Positions 36,560 through 43,267 of a DNA stretch of 64,000 nt are shown here, piece by piece. Numbering within the stretch: the stretch's first letter is position 1; each line of letters starts with the position of its first letter. Source of the DNA: Cloacibacterium sp. TD35 (GTDB lineage Bacteria; Bacteroidota; Bacteroidia; Flavobacteriales; Weeksellaceae); assembly GCF_028864635.1 (NCBI RefSeq), contig NZ_CP104850.1:186001-250000 (forward strand). The letters run 5' to 3'. A program made the translations under genes and the position numbers. The notes beneath the pieces were generated by a model. That model was not told the origin of the DNA. It was given only the letters and a program-made list of their open reading frames with translations, and made no database searches.

Positions 36560-37837
36560 TTAATGGAATTGCTCCGCTTCCGTAGAACCAGCTAAAGCTG
36601 TAGTAGAAACATTTCCAGAAGTAACAGTGGTTTGAACTGCATCAAAATAACCTGTTCCCACGAAACTTTGGTGTTTCACTGCACGGAAACCTTTAGCCTG
36701 TAAAGCAAATTCTCTTTCCTGTAATTCGCTGTAACCAGCCATTCCTCTTTCTTTATAAGCCAACGCCAATTCGAACATCGCAGTATTCAATGCGTGGAAA
36801 CCTGCCAAAGTGATAAATTGGAATTTGTATCCCATTTTCGCTAATTCTTCGCGGAATGTTTCCATTTCAGGAACCGTCAATTTCGCTGCCCAATTGAAAG
36901 AAGGTGAACAGTTGTAAGCCAACATTTTACCAGGGAATTTTGCTTGAATTCCTTCTGCAAATTTTCTCGCATATTCCAAATCAGGATTAGAAGTTTCCAT
37001 CCAAATTAAATCAGCATAAGGCGCATAAGAAAGTCCTCTATCAATACCTTGTTCTACTCCACAATTCACTTGGAAGAAACCTTCAGAAGTCCTTGCACCA
37101 GTAACGAATTTTTTATCTCTATCATCAATATCAGAAGTCAATAAATCTGCTGCATCAGCATCTGTTCTTGCCACTAAAACAGTAGGAACTCCGCAAACAT
37201 CTGCTGCTAATCTTGCTGCAATCAATTTATTAATCGCTTCTTGAGTAGGAACCAAAACCTTTCCACCAAGGTGACCGCATTTTTTTGCAGAAGACAATTG
37301 ATCTTCGAAGTGAACACCAGCTGCACCAGCTTCTATCATTTGTTTCATCAGTTCAAAAGCATTTAGATTCCCCCCGAAACCAGCTTCTGCATCTGCAACG
37401 ATTGGAACCAAATAATCTTTTTCACCACCTCCATTTACAGACTGAATTTGGTCTGCTCTCAAAAGTGCATTATTGATTTTTTTCACAACTGCTGGAACTG
37501 AATTCGCAGGATAAAGCGATTGGTCAGGATACATTTCTCCAGAAAGATTCGCATCTGCAGCAACTTGCCAACCAGAAAGATAAATAGCTTCTAAACCTGC
37601 GTCCACTTCTTGAACCGCTTGATTTCCCGTTAAAGCTCCTAATCCGGCTACAAAATCTTGATTATTTAGCTTTTCCCAAAGCAACTCTGACATTTGTGTA
37701 GCGATGGTATAATCTAGCTTGTATTTTCCTCTTAGTTTTAAAACTTCTTCAGCCGAATAAGGCCTTGTAATTCCGCTCCATCTTGGATTTTCTCTCCATT
37801 CTTTTTCGAGCGCTTGGATTTGTTCTTGTCTGTTCAT
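36560..37837 (-). CDS. aceA: Isocitrate lyase
   Basis: A 425-residue enzyme that splits isocitrate to glyoxylate and succinate. The catalytic Cys187 lies in the signature [10 protein letters not shown] (184-193). [11 protein letters not shown] and the flexible loop and substrate motifs ([20 protein letters not shown]) match the bacterial AceA form. It is read after aceB with 35 bases between, on the same strand, so an aceB-aceA operon is likely. The divergent regulator upstream of aceB is the probable controller. Confidence 0.95.
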
Positions 37838-37872: not shown

Positions 37873-39444
37873 TTAAATAAACGGATACGCTTTTAAGGTT
37901 AAAAAGTCCTCGAAATTTTCATCGAAAACCAACTCATTAAAGAGTTTTGTTGCCAAATCAAATTTTCCCTTTTCGTAACGATTTTCGCCTACATATTTTT
38001 TGATATTTTCGAGTTCTTCTTTCTCAAATTCCAGAACCATTTCTTGGGTCAATGTTCTTCCATCATTTAGTTTTGCTTTATTTTTCAGCCATTGCCAAAT
38101 TTGAGTTCTAGAAATTTCCGCAGTTGCAGCATCTTCCATTAAATTATACAATGCAGCAGCTCCAGTTCCCATGAGCCAAGATTCTATATAAAGAATTCCT
38201 ACGTTAATATTTTTTCTCACGCCTTTTTCGGTGATTTCCCCTTTTGGAACTTCTAATAAATCTGCCTCTGTAATATGATAATCTTCGTGTTTTTCAGAAA
38301 TTTGATTTGGAGTAGGCATAAATTCATCAAAAATTTGCTTCGCAACAGGAACCAAACCAGGATGTGCTACCCAAGTTCCATCGTGCCCGTTTTTCACTTC
38401 ACGTTCTTTGTCTGCTCTAACTTTTGCATATGCCAATTCGTTTTCTTCTTCATTATTTTTTACGGGAATTTGCGCTGCCATTCCTCCCATTGCATGAACT
38501 CCTCGTTTATGACAAACCTGAATCACTCGTTTTGAATAGGCACTCATAAAAGGAGAAGTCATGGTCACTTGATCTCTATCTGGAAATAAAAATTCCTTAT
38601 GATTTCTAAATTTTTTGATGTAAGAGAAAATGTAATCCCATCTTCCACAATTGAGTCCAGAACTATGTTCTTTGAGTTCGTATAAAATTTCATCGAGCTG
38701 AAAAGAAGCAGTAATGGTTTCTATAAGAACTGTGGCCTTAATTGTGCCTTGTGAAATACCTAAATAATTTTGTGAGAAATTGAAGATCTCATTCCACCAT
38801 TGTGCTTCTTTATAGTGCTCTAATTTTGGTAAATAAAAGTAGGGACCGCTTCCGTTTTCTAATAATTTCTTCGCATTTCTGAAAAAATAAATCCCGAAAT
38901 CTATAAGAGAACCAGAAGCTTTTTCTCCGTTTATCATTATATTTTTTTCGTCTAAATGTAACCCACGAGGTCTTACCAAAAGTACCGCCAATTTTTCGCC
39001 CAATTGGTATGCTTTTCCTTCTTCGTTTAAAAAATCTATGGTTCTATTGATAGCATCAGAAAGATTAATCTGTCCTTCCATGCAATTTTCCCAAGTTGGC
39101 GAATTAGAATCCTCAAAATCTGCCATAAAAGTAGACGCTCCAGAATTTAAGGCATTGATAATCATTTTTCTATCAACCGGACCAGTTATTTCTACACGTC
39201 TGTCTTGTAAATCTTTTGGCAATCTGCTGCACACCCAATTTTCTTCTCTAATTCCTAAAGTTTCTTCTGGGAATTTAGGAAAAATGCCTTCATCTATTTT
39301 TTGTTGCACCATTTTCCTTGCAGACAATAATTCTAATCTGTTTTGATTAAAATTTTTATGCAAGTGAATTAAAAATTTCACCAGTTCTTCCGAAAAAATT
39401 TCGGGATAATGATGAGCGGATGTGATTTTAAAATTAGACTCCAT
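37873..39444 (-). CDS. aceB: Malate synthase A
   Basis: A 523-residue enzyme condensing glyoxylate with acetyl-CoA to malate. The malate synthase A signature [17 protein letters not shown] is complete, with [20 protein letters not shown] and [12 protein letters not shown] blocks. The length fits the A isoform, not G. The frame extends to a TTG at 39468, but the ATG at 39444 is the family start. Its promoter region carries a TATATTTG box on the minus strand (39537-39530) and a perfect palindrome over the -33 position. Confidence 0.95.
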
Positions 39445-39529
39445 AGTATATTTTGTTGTGGGTTTCAAAAAAATGTGGTTATTAGTTTTATTTGAAACGA
39501 AATGAATAGATTTTGAATTTGTTCTTTTG

Positions 39530-39622
39530 CAAATATAAAAAATATTTTCACTTACAGCGAACGTTCGCTAAATTTTTAATAAAAATTATTATGCGAAAAA
39601 TCGCTTATAATTCTTATCTTTG
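39530..39622. promoter_or_regulatory. Divergent aceB / regulator promoter with two operator-like palindromes
   Basis: Site 1 is the perfect palindrome AGCGAACGTTCGCT (39556-39569). It overlaps the expected -33 position of the aceB promoter, whose -7 box TATATTTG is at 39537-39530 on the minus strand. Site 2 is TGCGAAAAATCGCT (39592-39605), with the same GCGA/TCGC half-sites and the same length. It overlaps the -33 position of the regulator promoter, whose -7 box TATCTTTG is at 39615-39622. Centres are 36 bases apart. Binding by the divergent regulator is inferred. Confidence 0.65.
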
Positions 39623-39671: not shown

Positions 39672-41147
39672 ATGAACAGCGAAAGTGATTTTATCAAAAC
39701 CGTTTTTGGTTTAAAACTGAGACAACAGAGACAAAAAAGAAATTGGTCACTGCAAGATTTGGCAGACAAAACCAAACTTTCAAAATCTTATCTTAATGAA
39801 ATAGAAAACGGAAAAAAATATCCTAAACATGATAAAATCATTCAGTTAGCTGATGTACTGAATTGCAAATTTGACGATTTAGTCTCTACCAAACTGGACA
39901 AAAACCTTGCTCCTTTTAGTGAAATTTTACAAAGCGATTTCTTCAAAGAAATTCCGCTAGAACTTTTTGGAATCAATAAAAATACACTCATTAATATCAT
40001 CAGTGAAGCTCCTAAAAAAGTAACTGCATTTATCAACACTTTGATTGAAATTTCCCAAAATTACAATCTCGGAAAAGAGCGTTTTTACTTCGCTGTGGTC
40101 AGAAGTTTTCAAGAATTATACGACAATCATTTTCCAGATATTGAAGAAAAAGCCAAAAATTTCGCTGATGAAAATCAATTAAAGCTCGGAAAAAACATTG
40201 ATATTAAACATTTAGAAAAAATTCTACTTGATGTTTTCGATTATGAAATAAAATCCGAAGATTTTGAGCAATATGGAACTTTAAATCATCTTCGTTCGCT
40301 TTACGTTCCTGAAAAAAAATTATTGATTCTCAATCGTTTACTTGATGAGAATCAAAAAACCTTCATTCTTGCTAAAGAAATTGGCTTTCAAGTTTTAGAA
40401 CTCAATCCAAGACCAAATACTTATTCCTGGTTAGACTTCACCAGTTTCGAAGAATTATTGAGTAATTTCTACGCTTCATATTTTGCAGGTTGTATTCTGA
40501 TACCAAAAGATGAATTGATCGAAAAAACAGAAGAATTCTTTGACGAACCAGACTTTGATTCTCAAAAATTCGATGAATTAATTGCCCATTTCACCAATTC
40601 TCCTGAGACTTTTTATTATCGCTTAACCAATTTACTTTCAGCCGAATTCGGGATAAAAGATTTATTTTATTTGTGTTTCGTCAAAAAGAAAAACACTGAC
40701 AAGGTGCAAATTCTGAAAGAATTACACTTGAATCAACAACAAGCTCCTCACGGAAACGCTACCAACGAACATTACTGCAGACGCTGGGTTGCAATTAAAA
40801 ATTTAAAAGAATTGCAAGAAAATGAAACCGCAACTTCTGCACAAATTTCTCATTACAAAGATTCTGGATTGAGCTATCTGGTAATTTCTACTTCGCACAG
40901 AAACCCATTTTCAGACGGAACCAACAGAAGTTACTGCTTGGGAATTTTACTGAATTCTAATTCCTTGAAAAAAATAAAATTTGCAAAAAACGACAGCATT
41001 AAATCTGAAGACGTAGGCGTTACTTGCGAAACATGCAGCATCTCTGACTGCGAAGTAAGAAAAGCACCACCAACCCGATTAGAAAAAGAACACTTCAACG
41101 AAAGCATGAAAAAAGCGATTGCTAAAATCAGAAAAGAAGTGCTCTAA
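39672..41147 (+). CDS. XRE-family regulator with IrrE-like and ScfR/RamB C-terminal domains
   Basis: A 491-residue transcription regulator. The helix-turn-helix is at about residues 13-68 (LRQQRQKRNWSLQDLADKTK, SKSYLNEIENGKKYP). The middle has the ImmA/IrrE-like region, but the HExxH is degenerate (LAKEIGF), so no protease activity is expected. The C-terminus has the short-chain fatty acyl regulator domain with CETCSISDCEVRKAPP. RamB of Corynebacterium, of the same architecture, controls acetate and glyoxylate genes. Here the gene is divergent from aceBA, so it likely senses an acyl-CoA or acetate state and controls that operon and itself. Confidence 0.85.
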   Translation: MNSESDFIKTVFGLKLRQQRQKRNWSLQDLADKTKLSKSYLNEIENGKKYPKHDKIIQLADVLNCKFDDLVSTKLDKNLAPFSEILQSDFFKEIPLELFGINKNTLINIISEAPKKVTAFINTLIEISQNYNLGKERFYFAVVRSFQELYDNHFPDIEEKAKNFADENQLKLGKNIDIKHLEKILLDVFDYEIKSEDFEQYGTLNHLRSLYVPEKKLLILNRLLDENQKTFILAKEIGFQVLELNPRPNTYSWLDFTSFEELLSNFYASYFAGCILIPKDELIEKTEEFFDEPDFDSQKFDELIAHFTNSPETFYYRLTNLLSAEFGIKDLFYLCFVKKKNTDKVQILKELHLNQQQAPHGNATNEHYCRRWVAIKNLKELQENETATSAQISHYKDSGLSYLVISTSHRNPFSDGTNRSYCLGILLNSNSLKKIKFAKNDSIKSEDVGVTCETCSISDCEVRKAPPTRLEKEHFNESMKKAIAKIRKEVL

Positions 41148-41230: not shown

Positions 41231-42487
41231 ATGAATTTAGACAGAATAAAAGAAAAATTAGAAATCCTTGCAGACGCCGCTAAATACGACGTTTCCTGCT
41301 CTTCGAGTGGTGGAAATCGTAAAAACAAAGGCGGATTAGGCAATAGTCATACTGCGGGAATTTGTCACTCCTTTACAGAAGATGGCAGATGTATTTCTTT
41401 GCTCAAAATTCTCTTAACCAATCATTGCATTTACGACTGTTTATATTGCGTTTCCAGAAAATCAAACGACATAAAACGGGCTGCTTTCACGGTAGAAGAA
41501 GTGGTAGACCTCACGATGAATTTCTACCGCAGAAATTATATTGAGGGCTTATTTTTAAGTTCTGGAATTTTTAAAAATGCAGATTTCACTATGGAACGAT
41601 TGGTGAGAATTGCCCAAAAATTGAGAGAAGAACATAACTTCAATGGCTACATTCACCTAAAAACCATTCCTGGAGCAAGTGATGAACTAATTAGAGAAGC
41701 GGGTTTATACGCAGACAGACTTTCCATCAATTTGGAAATTCCTACAGAATCTGGTTTAAAACTTCTCGCTCCCGAAAAATCTCATCAAGACATGATAAAA
41801 CCGATGGGTTTTATTAAAAATGCTTTAACGGTTTATCAAGAAGAAAGAAAAATTTTTAGAAAAGTTCCCAAATTCGCTCCAGCTGGTCAATCTACCCAAA
41901 TGATTGTGGGTGCAACCAACGAAACTGACCTGAAAATCATTCATGTAGCCAAACATTTTTATCAAAATTACAACATGAAACGGGTGTATTATTCTGGTTA
42001 CGTTCCTGTTTTAGAAGATAAAAATTTACCTTCCATTCATGCTCAAGTTCCGATGCAAAGGGAAAACCGGCTGTATCAAGCAGATTGGCTGATGCGTTTT
42101 TATGGTTTTGATGCCAATGAAATTTTAGATAAAAATCATCCGTTTCTAGATTTAGAAGTAGACCCAAAATTAGCTTGGGCACTTAGAAACAGAGAAAAGT
42201 TCCCAGTAAATATCAATACTGCACCGAAAGAAATGCTACTAAGGATTCCTGGAGTGGGTGTAACTTCTGTAAATAAAATTCTGATGGCGAGAAAATTTCA
42301 GAAATTGAATTTAGAACACCTCAAAAAAATGGGCGTTGCAATCAACAGAGCCAAATACTTTATAGAATTTGAAAGTCAAAATATTTTCAGCCGATTAATT
42401 GATGAGCAAAATTTCAGACAAATCATTGTAAATGGCATGAAATCTAAATGGCAAAATCCGTTTTCGGAGCAGTTAAGTTTGTTTTAA
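41231..42487 (+). CDS. Putative DNA modification/repair radical SAM protein
   Basis: A 418-residue radical S-adenosylmethionine protein of the TIGR03916 type. The iron-sulfur triad is Cys66, Cys70, Cys73 in NHCIYDCLYC. A helix-hairpin-helix DNA-binding part is near residues 330-350 (MLLRIPGVGVTSVNKI). The N-terminus has a conserved CSSSGGNRK segment and GICHSF. The reaction is unknown. A TATCTTTG box at 41210-41217 with TTG 20 bases upstream is the likely promoter. The partner gene follows 15 bases later. Confidence 0.85.
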   Translation: MNLDRIKEKLEILADAAKYDVSCSSSGGNRKNKGGLGNSHTAGICHSFTEDGRCISLLKILLTNHCIYDCLYCVSRKSNDIKRAAFTVEEVVDLTMNFYRRNYIEGLFLSSGIFKNADFTMERLVRIAQKLREEHNFNGYIHLKTIPGASDELIREAGLYADRLSINLEIPTESGLKLLAPEKSHQDMIKPMGFIKNALTVYQEERKIFRKVPKFAPAGQSTQMIVGATNETDLKIIHVAKHFYQNYNMKRVYYSGYVPVLEDKNLPSIHAQVPMQRENRLYQADWLMRFYGFDANEILDKNHPFLDLEVDPKLAWALRNREKFPVNINTAPKEMLLRIPGVGVTSVNKILMARKFQKLNLEHLKKMGVAINRAKYFIEFESQNIFSRLIDEQNFRQIIVNGMKSKWQNPFSEQLSLF

Positions 42488-42502
42488 TTGATTTCGATTG
42501 AA

Positions 42503-43267
42503 ATGACTACATTAATATATGATTCCACTTTTGAAGGATTAATGACCGCTGTATTTGAAGTTTTCGAGTACAAATATGATACTGTGGAAATTGTTGCTCA
42601 ACAAAATTACAGTCAAGAAAATTTCTTCGCAGAAACACATGAGGTGATTACTGATTTTACCAAATCTGACCGAGTTCTGAAAAAATTGGAAGAAAACCTA
42701 GGAAAGCAAGGCATTTCTCAACTCATGATGGTTTATTTGTCGGAGAGAAAAGACTTGGAACGATTAATTTTGAGTGTAATTCGACACTCCATAAAACATC
42801 CAAAACAAAATATTTTACAAGATTTTGGGAATGAAGATATTTTAGAAATTTCTAAAATATGCAGAAGCGTGAGCAGAGAACGACACAGAATGCTGGCTTT
42901 TGTACGTTTTGAATTATTACAAGACGAAGTTTATTTTGCCAAAATAGAACCTGATTTTAATGTTTTACCACTTATCAGAAAACATTTTAAAGAAAGATAC
43001 GCTGACCAAAAATGGATGATTTTCGATTTGAAAAGGCATTATGGAATTTTTTACGATTTAAAAGAAGTTCATTTTTTCACGACTGATTCTTCTCAAATGC
43101 AAAATTTCAGAAACTCTGAGCAGTTCCATCACGATGAAGAGAAAAAATACCAAAAACTTTGGCAACGTTACTTTGTAAAAACTGGAATTCCTGAACGAAA
43201 AAACATGAAACTTCATATTCAGTGGGTTCCGAAACGCTATTGGAAATATCTGACGGAGAAGTTTTAA
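42503..43267 (+). CDS. Putative DNA repair protein, TIGR03915 type (DUF4130)
   Basis: A 254-residue protein regularly found beside the radical SAM protein above. It begins MTTLIYDSTFEGLMTAVFEVF and has RHSIKHPKQNIL, RERHRMLAFVRFE and YADQKWMIFDLKRHYGIFYD blocks of the family. No catalytic motif is established. In some species it is fused to uracil-DNA glycosylase, which is why repair is proposed. The longer frame starts at a TTG one base after the previous stop; the ATG at 42503 fits the family. Confidence 0.8.
   Translation: MTTLIYDSTFEGLMTAVFEVFEYKYDTVEIVAQQNYSQENFFAETHEVITDFTKSDRVLKKLEENLGKQGISQLMMVYLSERKDLERLILSVIRHSIKHPKQNILQDFGNEDILEISKICRSVSRERHRMLAFVRFELLQDEVYFAKIEPDFNVLPLIRKHFKERYADQKWMIFDLKRHYGIFYDLKEVHFFTTDSSQMQNFRNSEQFHHDEEKKYQKLWQRYFVKTGIPERKNMKLHIQWVPKRYWKYLTEKF

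Follow-up and report, generated by a model that had tools for sequence, protein, structure and literature searches.

Within the window, a 64,000-nucleotide stretch of the genome of Cloacibacterium sp. TD35, the genes for malate synthase and isocitrate lyase are transcribed divergently from the gene for a predicted DNA-binding regulator, and two related palindromes lie in the intergenic region. This layout raises the question of whether the palindromes are operators through which the regulator controls the glyoxylate shunt genes, its own gene, or both.

The aceB-regulator intergenic region and the regulator

The aceB gene for malate synthase A (37873-39444, minus strand) begins with an ATG at 39444, the start given by the ORF lister being a TTG at 39468, and aceA for isocitrate lyase, recognized by a profile match, occupies 36560-37837 on the same strand. 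The regulator gene (39672-41147, plus strand) encodes a protein of 491 residues that is 98% identical to that of C. normanense IMET F, the closest named organism among the best 80 of 124 relatives. Downstream of the regulator gene, the plus strand carries a radical SAM gene of a putative DNA modification/repair type (TIGR03916, 688.8 bits) and a 259-residue ORF (41231-43267).

Site 1 (AGCGAACGTTCGCT, 39556-39569) is a perfect 14-bp palindrome and the predicted main operator, and site 2 (TGCGAAAAATCGCT, 39592-39605) is an imperfect palindrome and a predicted weaker operator. The earlier note had described the two as related, and on re-reading all of its letters and coordinates, for both palindromes and both -7 boxes, proved correct. 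The sites share the GCGA-N4-TCGC frame, with one half of site 2 intact (GCGAA) and the other carrying a mismatch (ATCGC). They are 22 bp apart; the distance is 36 bp from centre to centre and likewise between their right halves. GCGAN4TCGC matches only five positions in the 2.6-Mb genome (the reversed control pattern matches ten), and two of the five are sites 1 and 2, a pairing that exceeds the chance expectation. The exact site 1 14-mer is present in a single copy.

Promoter positions were deduced from two predicted -7 boxes located by eye, which we take to be such boxes from the Bacteroidota consensus. The aceB box lies at 39530-39537 on the minus strand (CAAATATA as read, TATATTTG on the minus strand) and that of the regulator gene at 39615-39622 on the plus strand (TATCTTTG). 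In the aceB promoter, site 1, which starts 18 bp from the -7 box, would thus span about -30 to -43. Between the end of site 2 and the regulator box there are 9 bp, which would place site 2 between -33 and -7 (about -20 to -33), with its far edge touching -33. Both palindromes had been placed at -33; this position fits site 1, but site 2 lies mostly in the spacer of its promoter. Of the 155 order regions with site 1 that are described below, 117 have CAAANNTA, the minus-strand aceB -7 box, at 18-22 bp from site 1; three have it at a different spacing, and in 35 it was not found. The first TANNTTTG comes 41-46 bp past site 1 in 113 of them. By eye, the Cloacibacterium intergenic region shows no TTTG where a -33 element of the aceB promoter would normally stand. 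The same region has TTTTCAC at 39545-39551, 4 bp ahead of site 1 and equally spaced in many of the family rows, which may be a further degenerate half-site.

The regulator has an N-terminal XRE-type helix-turn-helix (HTH_3, 54.2 bits against a cut-off of 23) and a C-terminal ScfRs domain (PF09856) that clears its cut-off of 24 narrowly at 25.6 bits, or 28.4 bits in a second search; it was the only ScfRs match found in the Cloacibacterium genome. The middle region is IrrE-like (PF06114 match), and no HExxH motif occurs anywhere in the protein, residues 235-239 reading KEIGF. Four cysteines, C369 and the C452-X2-C455-X4-C460 cluster, are the counterparts of the four cluster cysteines of PrpR and are invariant in all 20 aligned relatives, with a longer last gap in L228. 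Within the stretch 37-51 of the helix-turn-helix, S37, S39, Y40, E43, I44, E45, G47, K49 and P51 are likewise invariant (20/20), in line with a constant predicted operator. An AlphaFold model was weak (mean pLDDT 60, from 15 input sequences that are all at least 71% identical), and a fold search with this weak model returned, as its six best PDB matches, chains of a Mycobacterium tuberculosis transcriptional regulator (E 3.5e-8 to 9.5e-7), entries that presumably represent PrpR. The match is modest, with TM scores of 0.38-0.42 by query length and 17% identity, and single-sequence and profile searches of PDB sequences retrieved only helix-turn-helix domains. By its helix-turn-helix, ScfRs domain, cysteine pattern, absence of HEXXH and PrpR-like modelled fold, the protein is a predicted regulator of the ScfR/IsaR type. 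It had been called RamB/ScfR-like, and domains, cysteines and fold bear out the second half of that name. It is not a RamB equivalog, because it scores 52 bits against a cut-off of 700 with the corresponding profile (NF038139), over residues 12-468; 19 of the 20 aligned relatives match the same profile at E<=1e-10.

Conservation of site 1 with the regulator

We collected 173 regions upstream of regulator genes from the order, of which 156 are distinct over their last 263 bases, some organisms being represented in both sources. Site 1 was found in 155 of the 156, and the remaining region (L141) reads AGTGAACGTTCGCT. The exact AGCGAACGTTCGCT is present in 136 of the 155, the others varying at the two central bases or at one other base; in region L030 the script took site 2 instead, because site 1 there ends in C.

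The palindrome also tracks the regulator from genome to genome, in cross-tables compiled by hand from search lists and covering related genomes that do not count as independent, so that linkage alone could carry part of the co-occurrence. In the family survey of 148 genomes, 82 had a full-length regulator match and 79 had aceB, each of the 79 alongside the regulator. The degenerate form AGCGAANNTTCGCT occurs in 79 of the 82 genomes with the regulator, the three exceptions (L027, L030 and L151) being one-base variants, versus 8 of the 66 without it; three of these eight have other central bases among the matches listed. In the order survey, the exact 14-mer was found, in one copy each, in 42 of 54 genomes with the regulator and in 0 of 192 without it, and the reversed control pattern in 2 of 246. 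Of the 32 regulator-bearing order genomes that do not belong to the family, 20 contain the exact 14-mer. All 12 order genomes that have the regulator and lack the exact sequence carry a near form: AGCGAACGTACGCT, AGCGAACGTTCGCA or A/TGCGAATTTTCGCT.

The association extends well beyond the order. Among 345 genomes of the phylum, the regulator was detected at E<=1e-20 in 66, 42 of them outside the order, and we examined 41 of these 42, leaving out a partial match in G567. These 41 proteins are 31-43% identical to the Cloacibacterium regulator. AGCGAA-NN-TTCGCT (AGCGAANNTTCGCT) lies within 300 bp upstream of 29 of the 41 genes, and of 34 if one mismatch is allowed; 8,200 dinucleotide shuffles gave no exact match and 14 within one mismatch. 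The other seven have no such site in the 300 bp, one of them (L236) having it at -517. The upstream partner is aceB or aceA in some genomes. For the others, the longest upstream ORF was considered, which does not imply that it adjoins the regulator gene; its product is an AMP-binding enzyme in 5 of those scanned, adenylate kinase in 2, RNase P protein in 2 and something else in the rest.

Allowing two mismatches, the site is present in 220 of 226 upstream regions. In 52 of these, chosen to be less than 75% identical, the five inner positions of each half-site carry 1.4-2.3 bits and the outer A/T 1.0-1.1 bits, values inflated by the selection of rows by their match, the fair test being the shuffles. 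The two central bases carry only 0.17 and 0.49 bits, and the flanks at most 0.32 bits apart from 0.63 at -1, 0.79 at +15 and 0.40 at +16. Both half-sites are thus kept while the central two bases vary, the pattern predicted for a symmetric dimer site, and site 1 is, as judged from these alignments, a predicted ancient operator. The earlier note had held that free variation of the palindromes among close relatives would speak against its operator prediction; site 1 is conserved far beyond close relatives and tracks the regulator.

Several genomes separate the site from one or other of its usual neighbors. In C. rupense, aceB and the regulator gene are separated by an ORF of 206 residues with a signal-like start (L009:684-1304); site 1 has kept its 18-bp distance to the aceB -7 box and is 939 bp away from the regulator gene, with site 2 absent. 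In G221, aceB and the regulator gene are on separate contigs, and the palindrome accompanies aceB, with over 14 kb of sequence to each end of that contig; it was not found in the 837 bp ahead of the regulator gene, which may be damaged, given one internal stop in its frame. In both cases in which the two genes have parted, therefore, the site has stayed with aceB. Conversely, G021, G028 and G098 have the regulator with no aceB match at E<=1e-50, and the palindrome is still found upstream of the regulator gene. Together, these patterns indicate that neighborhood alone does not account for site 1.

Site 2, additional half-sites and candidate targets elsewhere

Site 2 has a narrower distribution. 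Exact copies of TGCGAN4TCGC at 20-23 bp from site 1 occur in 6 of the 7 distinct regions from Cloacibacterium, in 70 of the 99 from the Chryseobacterium/Epilithonimonas/Kaistella group and its neighbors (16 more have one mismatch), and in 4 of 5 g23-type regions. In the remaining family genera and outside the family, it was not found within two mismatches (0/3, 0/20 and 0/22), so site 2 is, by this comparison, apparently confined to part of the family. Because site 2 is displaced from -33 and limited within the family, the conserved unit would be site 1 alone, accompanied elsewhere by extra half-sites.

Such half-sites emerged from a scan in which every distance from the site 1 half-site, over 36 offsets on two sides, was checked for TTCGC with up to one mismatch. 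The scan was made after the pattern had been noticed, and some counts are inflated by close relatives; the average over all distances is 0.00-0.04. Towards the regulator gene, the Cloacibacterium/Chryseobacterium-type group has TTCGC at 35-36 bp in 93 of its 109 regions, where it corresponds to site 2; the other family genera have it at 18 bp (18 of 22 regions), and genomes from outside the order at 17 bp (15 of 34). On the side of the partner gene, it is found at 17-18 bp in 15 of the 22 and at 17-19 bp in 16 of the 34. Order genomes outside the family gave a weaker signal: among their 33 regions, TTCGC is at 35 bp in 7, at 17-18 bp in 7 and at 25 bp in 8. The 17-18 bp step, single or double, may reflect the geometry of a tetramer or of neighboring dimers. 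Between site 1 and the regulator start, L196 has four copies of TTCGC at exact 17-bp steps and L181 three, the palindrome half included. Region L037 (L037:2798-2968) is without site 2 and has TTCGCTAAATCATACTTTAGCGAA (2945) nearer the regulator gene, with the same half-sites oppositely arranged; this is perhaps a replacement autoregulatory site.

We found no second target in the Cloacibacterium genome at the two positions inspected, 1870018 and 612926; the further GCGAN4TCGC matches at 1403690 and 2060085 were left out. Gene names in this search (murE, mazG, pyrophosphatase) were assigned by eye. Position 1870018 is the sole other AGCGAANNTTCGCT match in the genome. There, AGCGAATATTCGCT is the center of a more extended hairpin with a T-run behind it, located between pyrophosphatase-like and membrane pyrophosphatase-like genes (L193:2617-2642), and the match accordingly looks like an intrinsic terminator behind a pyrophosphatase gene and was rejected as an operator. 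The match at 612926, with two mismatches, is inside a murE-like ORF. In genus g21, the two second sites inspected (L189 and L190) extend into the 3' end of a mazG-like ORF, so that coding accounts for them, and a further site, L191, has no evident link.

Outside the order, we searched 21 of the 42 genomes with the regulator for the site, and all 21 had a match. Twenty matches are away from the regulator gene; 19 were retrieved and the neighbors of nine were scanned. Four of the nine are upstream of genes with fitting functions, namely acyl-CoA dehydrogenase, 3-hydroxyacyl-CoA dehydrogenase, phosphoenolpyruvate (PEP) carboxykinase and aconitase (211 bp away), and the other five have neighbors that are unfitting or without a family. 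Three unscanned distant matches are inside ORFs (L292, L298 and L304). We make no regulon claim from these distant matches. Two of them, L289 and L290 in G389, begin 2-3 bp past the TAnnTTTG boxes of the acyl-CoA and 3-hydroxyacyl-CoA dehydrogenase genes, a hint from the sequence that the regulator may control beta-oxidation in that genome.

Known relatives and the predicted mode of control

Relatives of this regulator have been characterized in other phyla. Paracoccus denitrificans is reported to have a class 2 RamB of the ScfR family whose gene is divergent from those for malate synthase and isocitrate lyase, which is reported to activate on acetate and to repress on succinate, and which has a predicted acyl-CoA pocket and [4Fe-4S] cluster (PMC10370305). 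Two near-identical boxes with an 18-bp spacer lie in the shared intergenic region, and both are needed (PMC10370305). The gene layout thus resembles that in Cloacibacterium. The operators appear to differ: here a single palindrome is conserved and further half-sites are optional, the Cloacibacterium sites are 22 bp apart, the second is absent in many lineages, and half-sites at 17-19 or 35 bp recur.

M. tuberculosis PrpR is reported to bind short-chain acyl-CoA near a [4Fe-4S] cluster held by cysteine ligands (PMC6765138). With M. tuberculosis PrpR and RamB, the Cloacibacterium protein shares the domain order, the Cys + CX2CX4C pattern and the absence of HEXXH. The mycobacterial PrpR site is given in PMC3420887 as TTTGCAAA, one base, and TTTGCgAA, unlike AGCGAA-NN-TTCGCT in Bacteroidota, although the extended half TTAGCGAA of some relatives is one base off that TTTGCgAA. 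The Cloacibacterium intergenic region has one TTTGCAAA, at 39526-39533, formed by the -7 box, and inspection of the intergenic regions of L009, L010 and the Chryseobacterium-type rows by eye found none. As for Corynebacterium RamB (NF038139), similarity extends over residues 12-468 and the same metabolic role is expected, despite the gap in score.

Because site 1 is conserved almost letter for letter in many relatives that carry the regulator, it is very probably the docking site of this protein. From these comparisons, we think it probable that site 1 is the operator through which the divergent ScfR/IsaR-type regulator controls aceBA. An XRE-type helix-turn-helix dimer would read the two inverted AGCGAA half-sites, leaving the central two bases unread, and would cover the -33 region of the aceB promoter, thereby setting the activity of aceBA and of the glyoxylate shunt. 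In Cloacibacterium, Chryseobacterium and near relatives, the weaker site 2 would most likely serve autorepression, with a second dimer, possibly within a tetramer as in PrpR, limiting synthesis of the regulator; half-sites about 17-19 or 35 bp away suggest such a tetramer or a second dimer beside the first. By analogy with PrpR and Paracoccus RamB, the signal would probably be a short-chain acyl-CoA bound close to a [4Fe-4S] cluster. Repression without ligand would be the likelier sign of control, with growth on acetate or fatty acids lifting it and perhaps converting it into activation.

The sign of control is where the strongest alternative lies. The same protein on the same site could act mainly as an activator of aceBA, recruiting polymerase when loaded with acyl-CoA to a promoter that has no -33 element. 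Activation is conceivable given that aceB has no evident -33 element (TTTG is not seen at its normal spacing) and that site 1 lies near -37, and the recurrent 18-22 bp between site 1 and the aceB box (117/155) would suit it, as would the PEP carboxykinase site of G505, which is upstream of a TATTTTTG box. The relatives point both ways: PrpR is an activator, as Paracoccus RamB is reported to be on acetate (PMC10370305), but M. tuberculosis RamB represses icl1 (PMC6765138, PMC3420887). Against activation stand the two G389 operators directly past -7-like boxes and the position of site 2 within the spacer of the regulator promoter, and on these two observations we favor repression, leaving predominant activation a real but distinctly less probable reading.

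A second alternative is that an unlinked transcription factor binds the palindrome and that the adjoining regulator is simply a linked gene, and linkage could account for part of the co-occurrence. We regard this as improbable: the exact 14-mer is missing from all 192 order genomes that lack the regulator, the site is also found upstream of regulators whose scanned upstream ORFs are not aceB, and it persists in the three family genomes with no aceB match. That the palindrome acts as RNA, in a terminator or leader hairpin, or is a chance leftover is hardly credible, since, for all the resemblance of the AGCGAANNTTCGCT match at 1870018 to an intrinsic terminator, site 1 precedes both predicted transcription starts, lacks a longer stem and a neighboring T-run, and is conserved far above shuffles.

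Repression by the ScfR/IsaR-type regulator from site 1 thus remains our preferred reading for Cloacibacterium. On a wider scale, we lean towards the view of a phylum-wide operator, AGCGAA-NN-TTCGCT, flanked to either side by auxiliary half-sites spaced in steps of about 17-18 bp, which has been kept with one acyl-CoA/iron-sulfur type of regulator through much of the history of Bacteroidota. Across lineages, this operator would tie the glyoxylate shunt, its target in some, to genes of beta-oxidation and gluconeogenesis, its targets in others, using inverted GCGAA half-sites rather than the tandem TTTGCAAA boxes of the mycobacterial relatives.

In the open-licence literature searched, the 14-mer appears in no paper, and we found no description of glyoxylate-shunt control in Bacteroidota; the type of regulator is already known, and no description of its operator was found in those papers. 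A 14-bp operator that can be read from sequence offers a specific test for this regulator and a marker for its targets in other genomes of the phylum. The predicted DNA-binding specificity appears to have been held while the protein diverged to 31-43% identity, and the locus provides a harmless system for studying the possible joint control of central metabolism by acyl-CoA and an iron-sulfur cluster.
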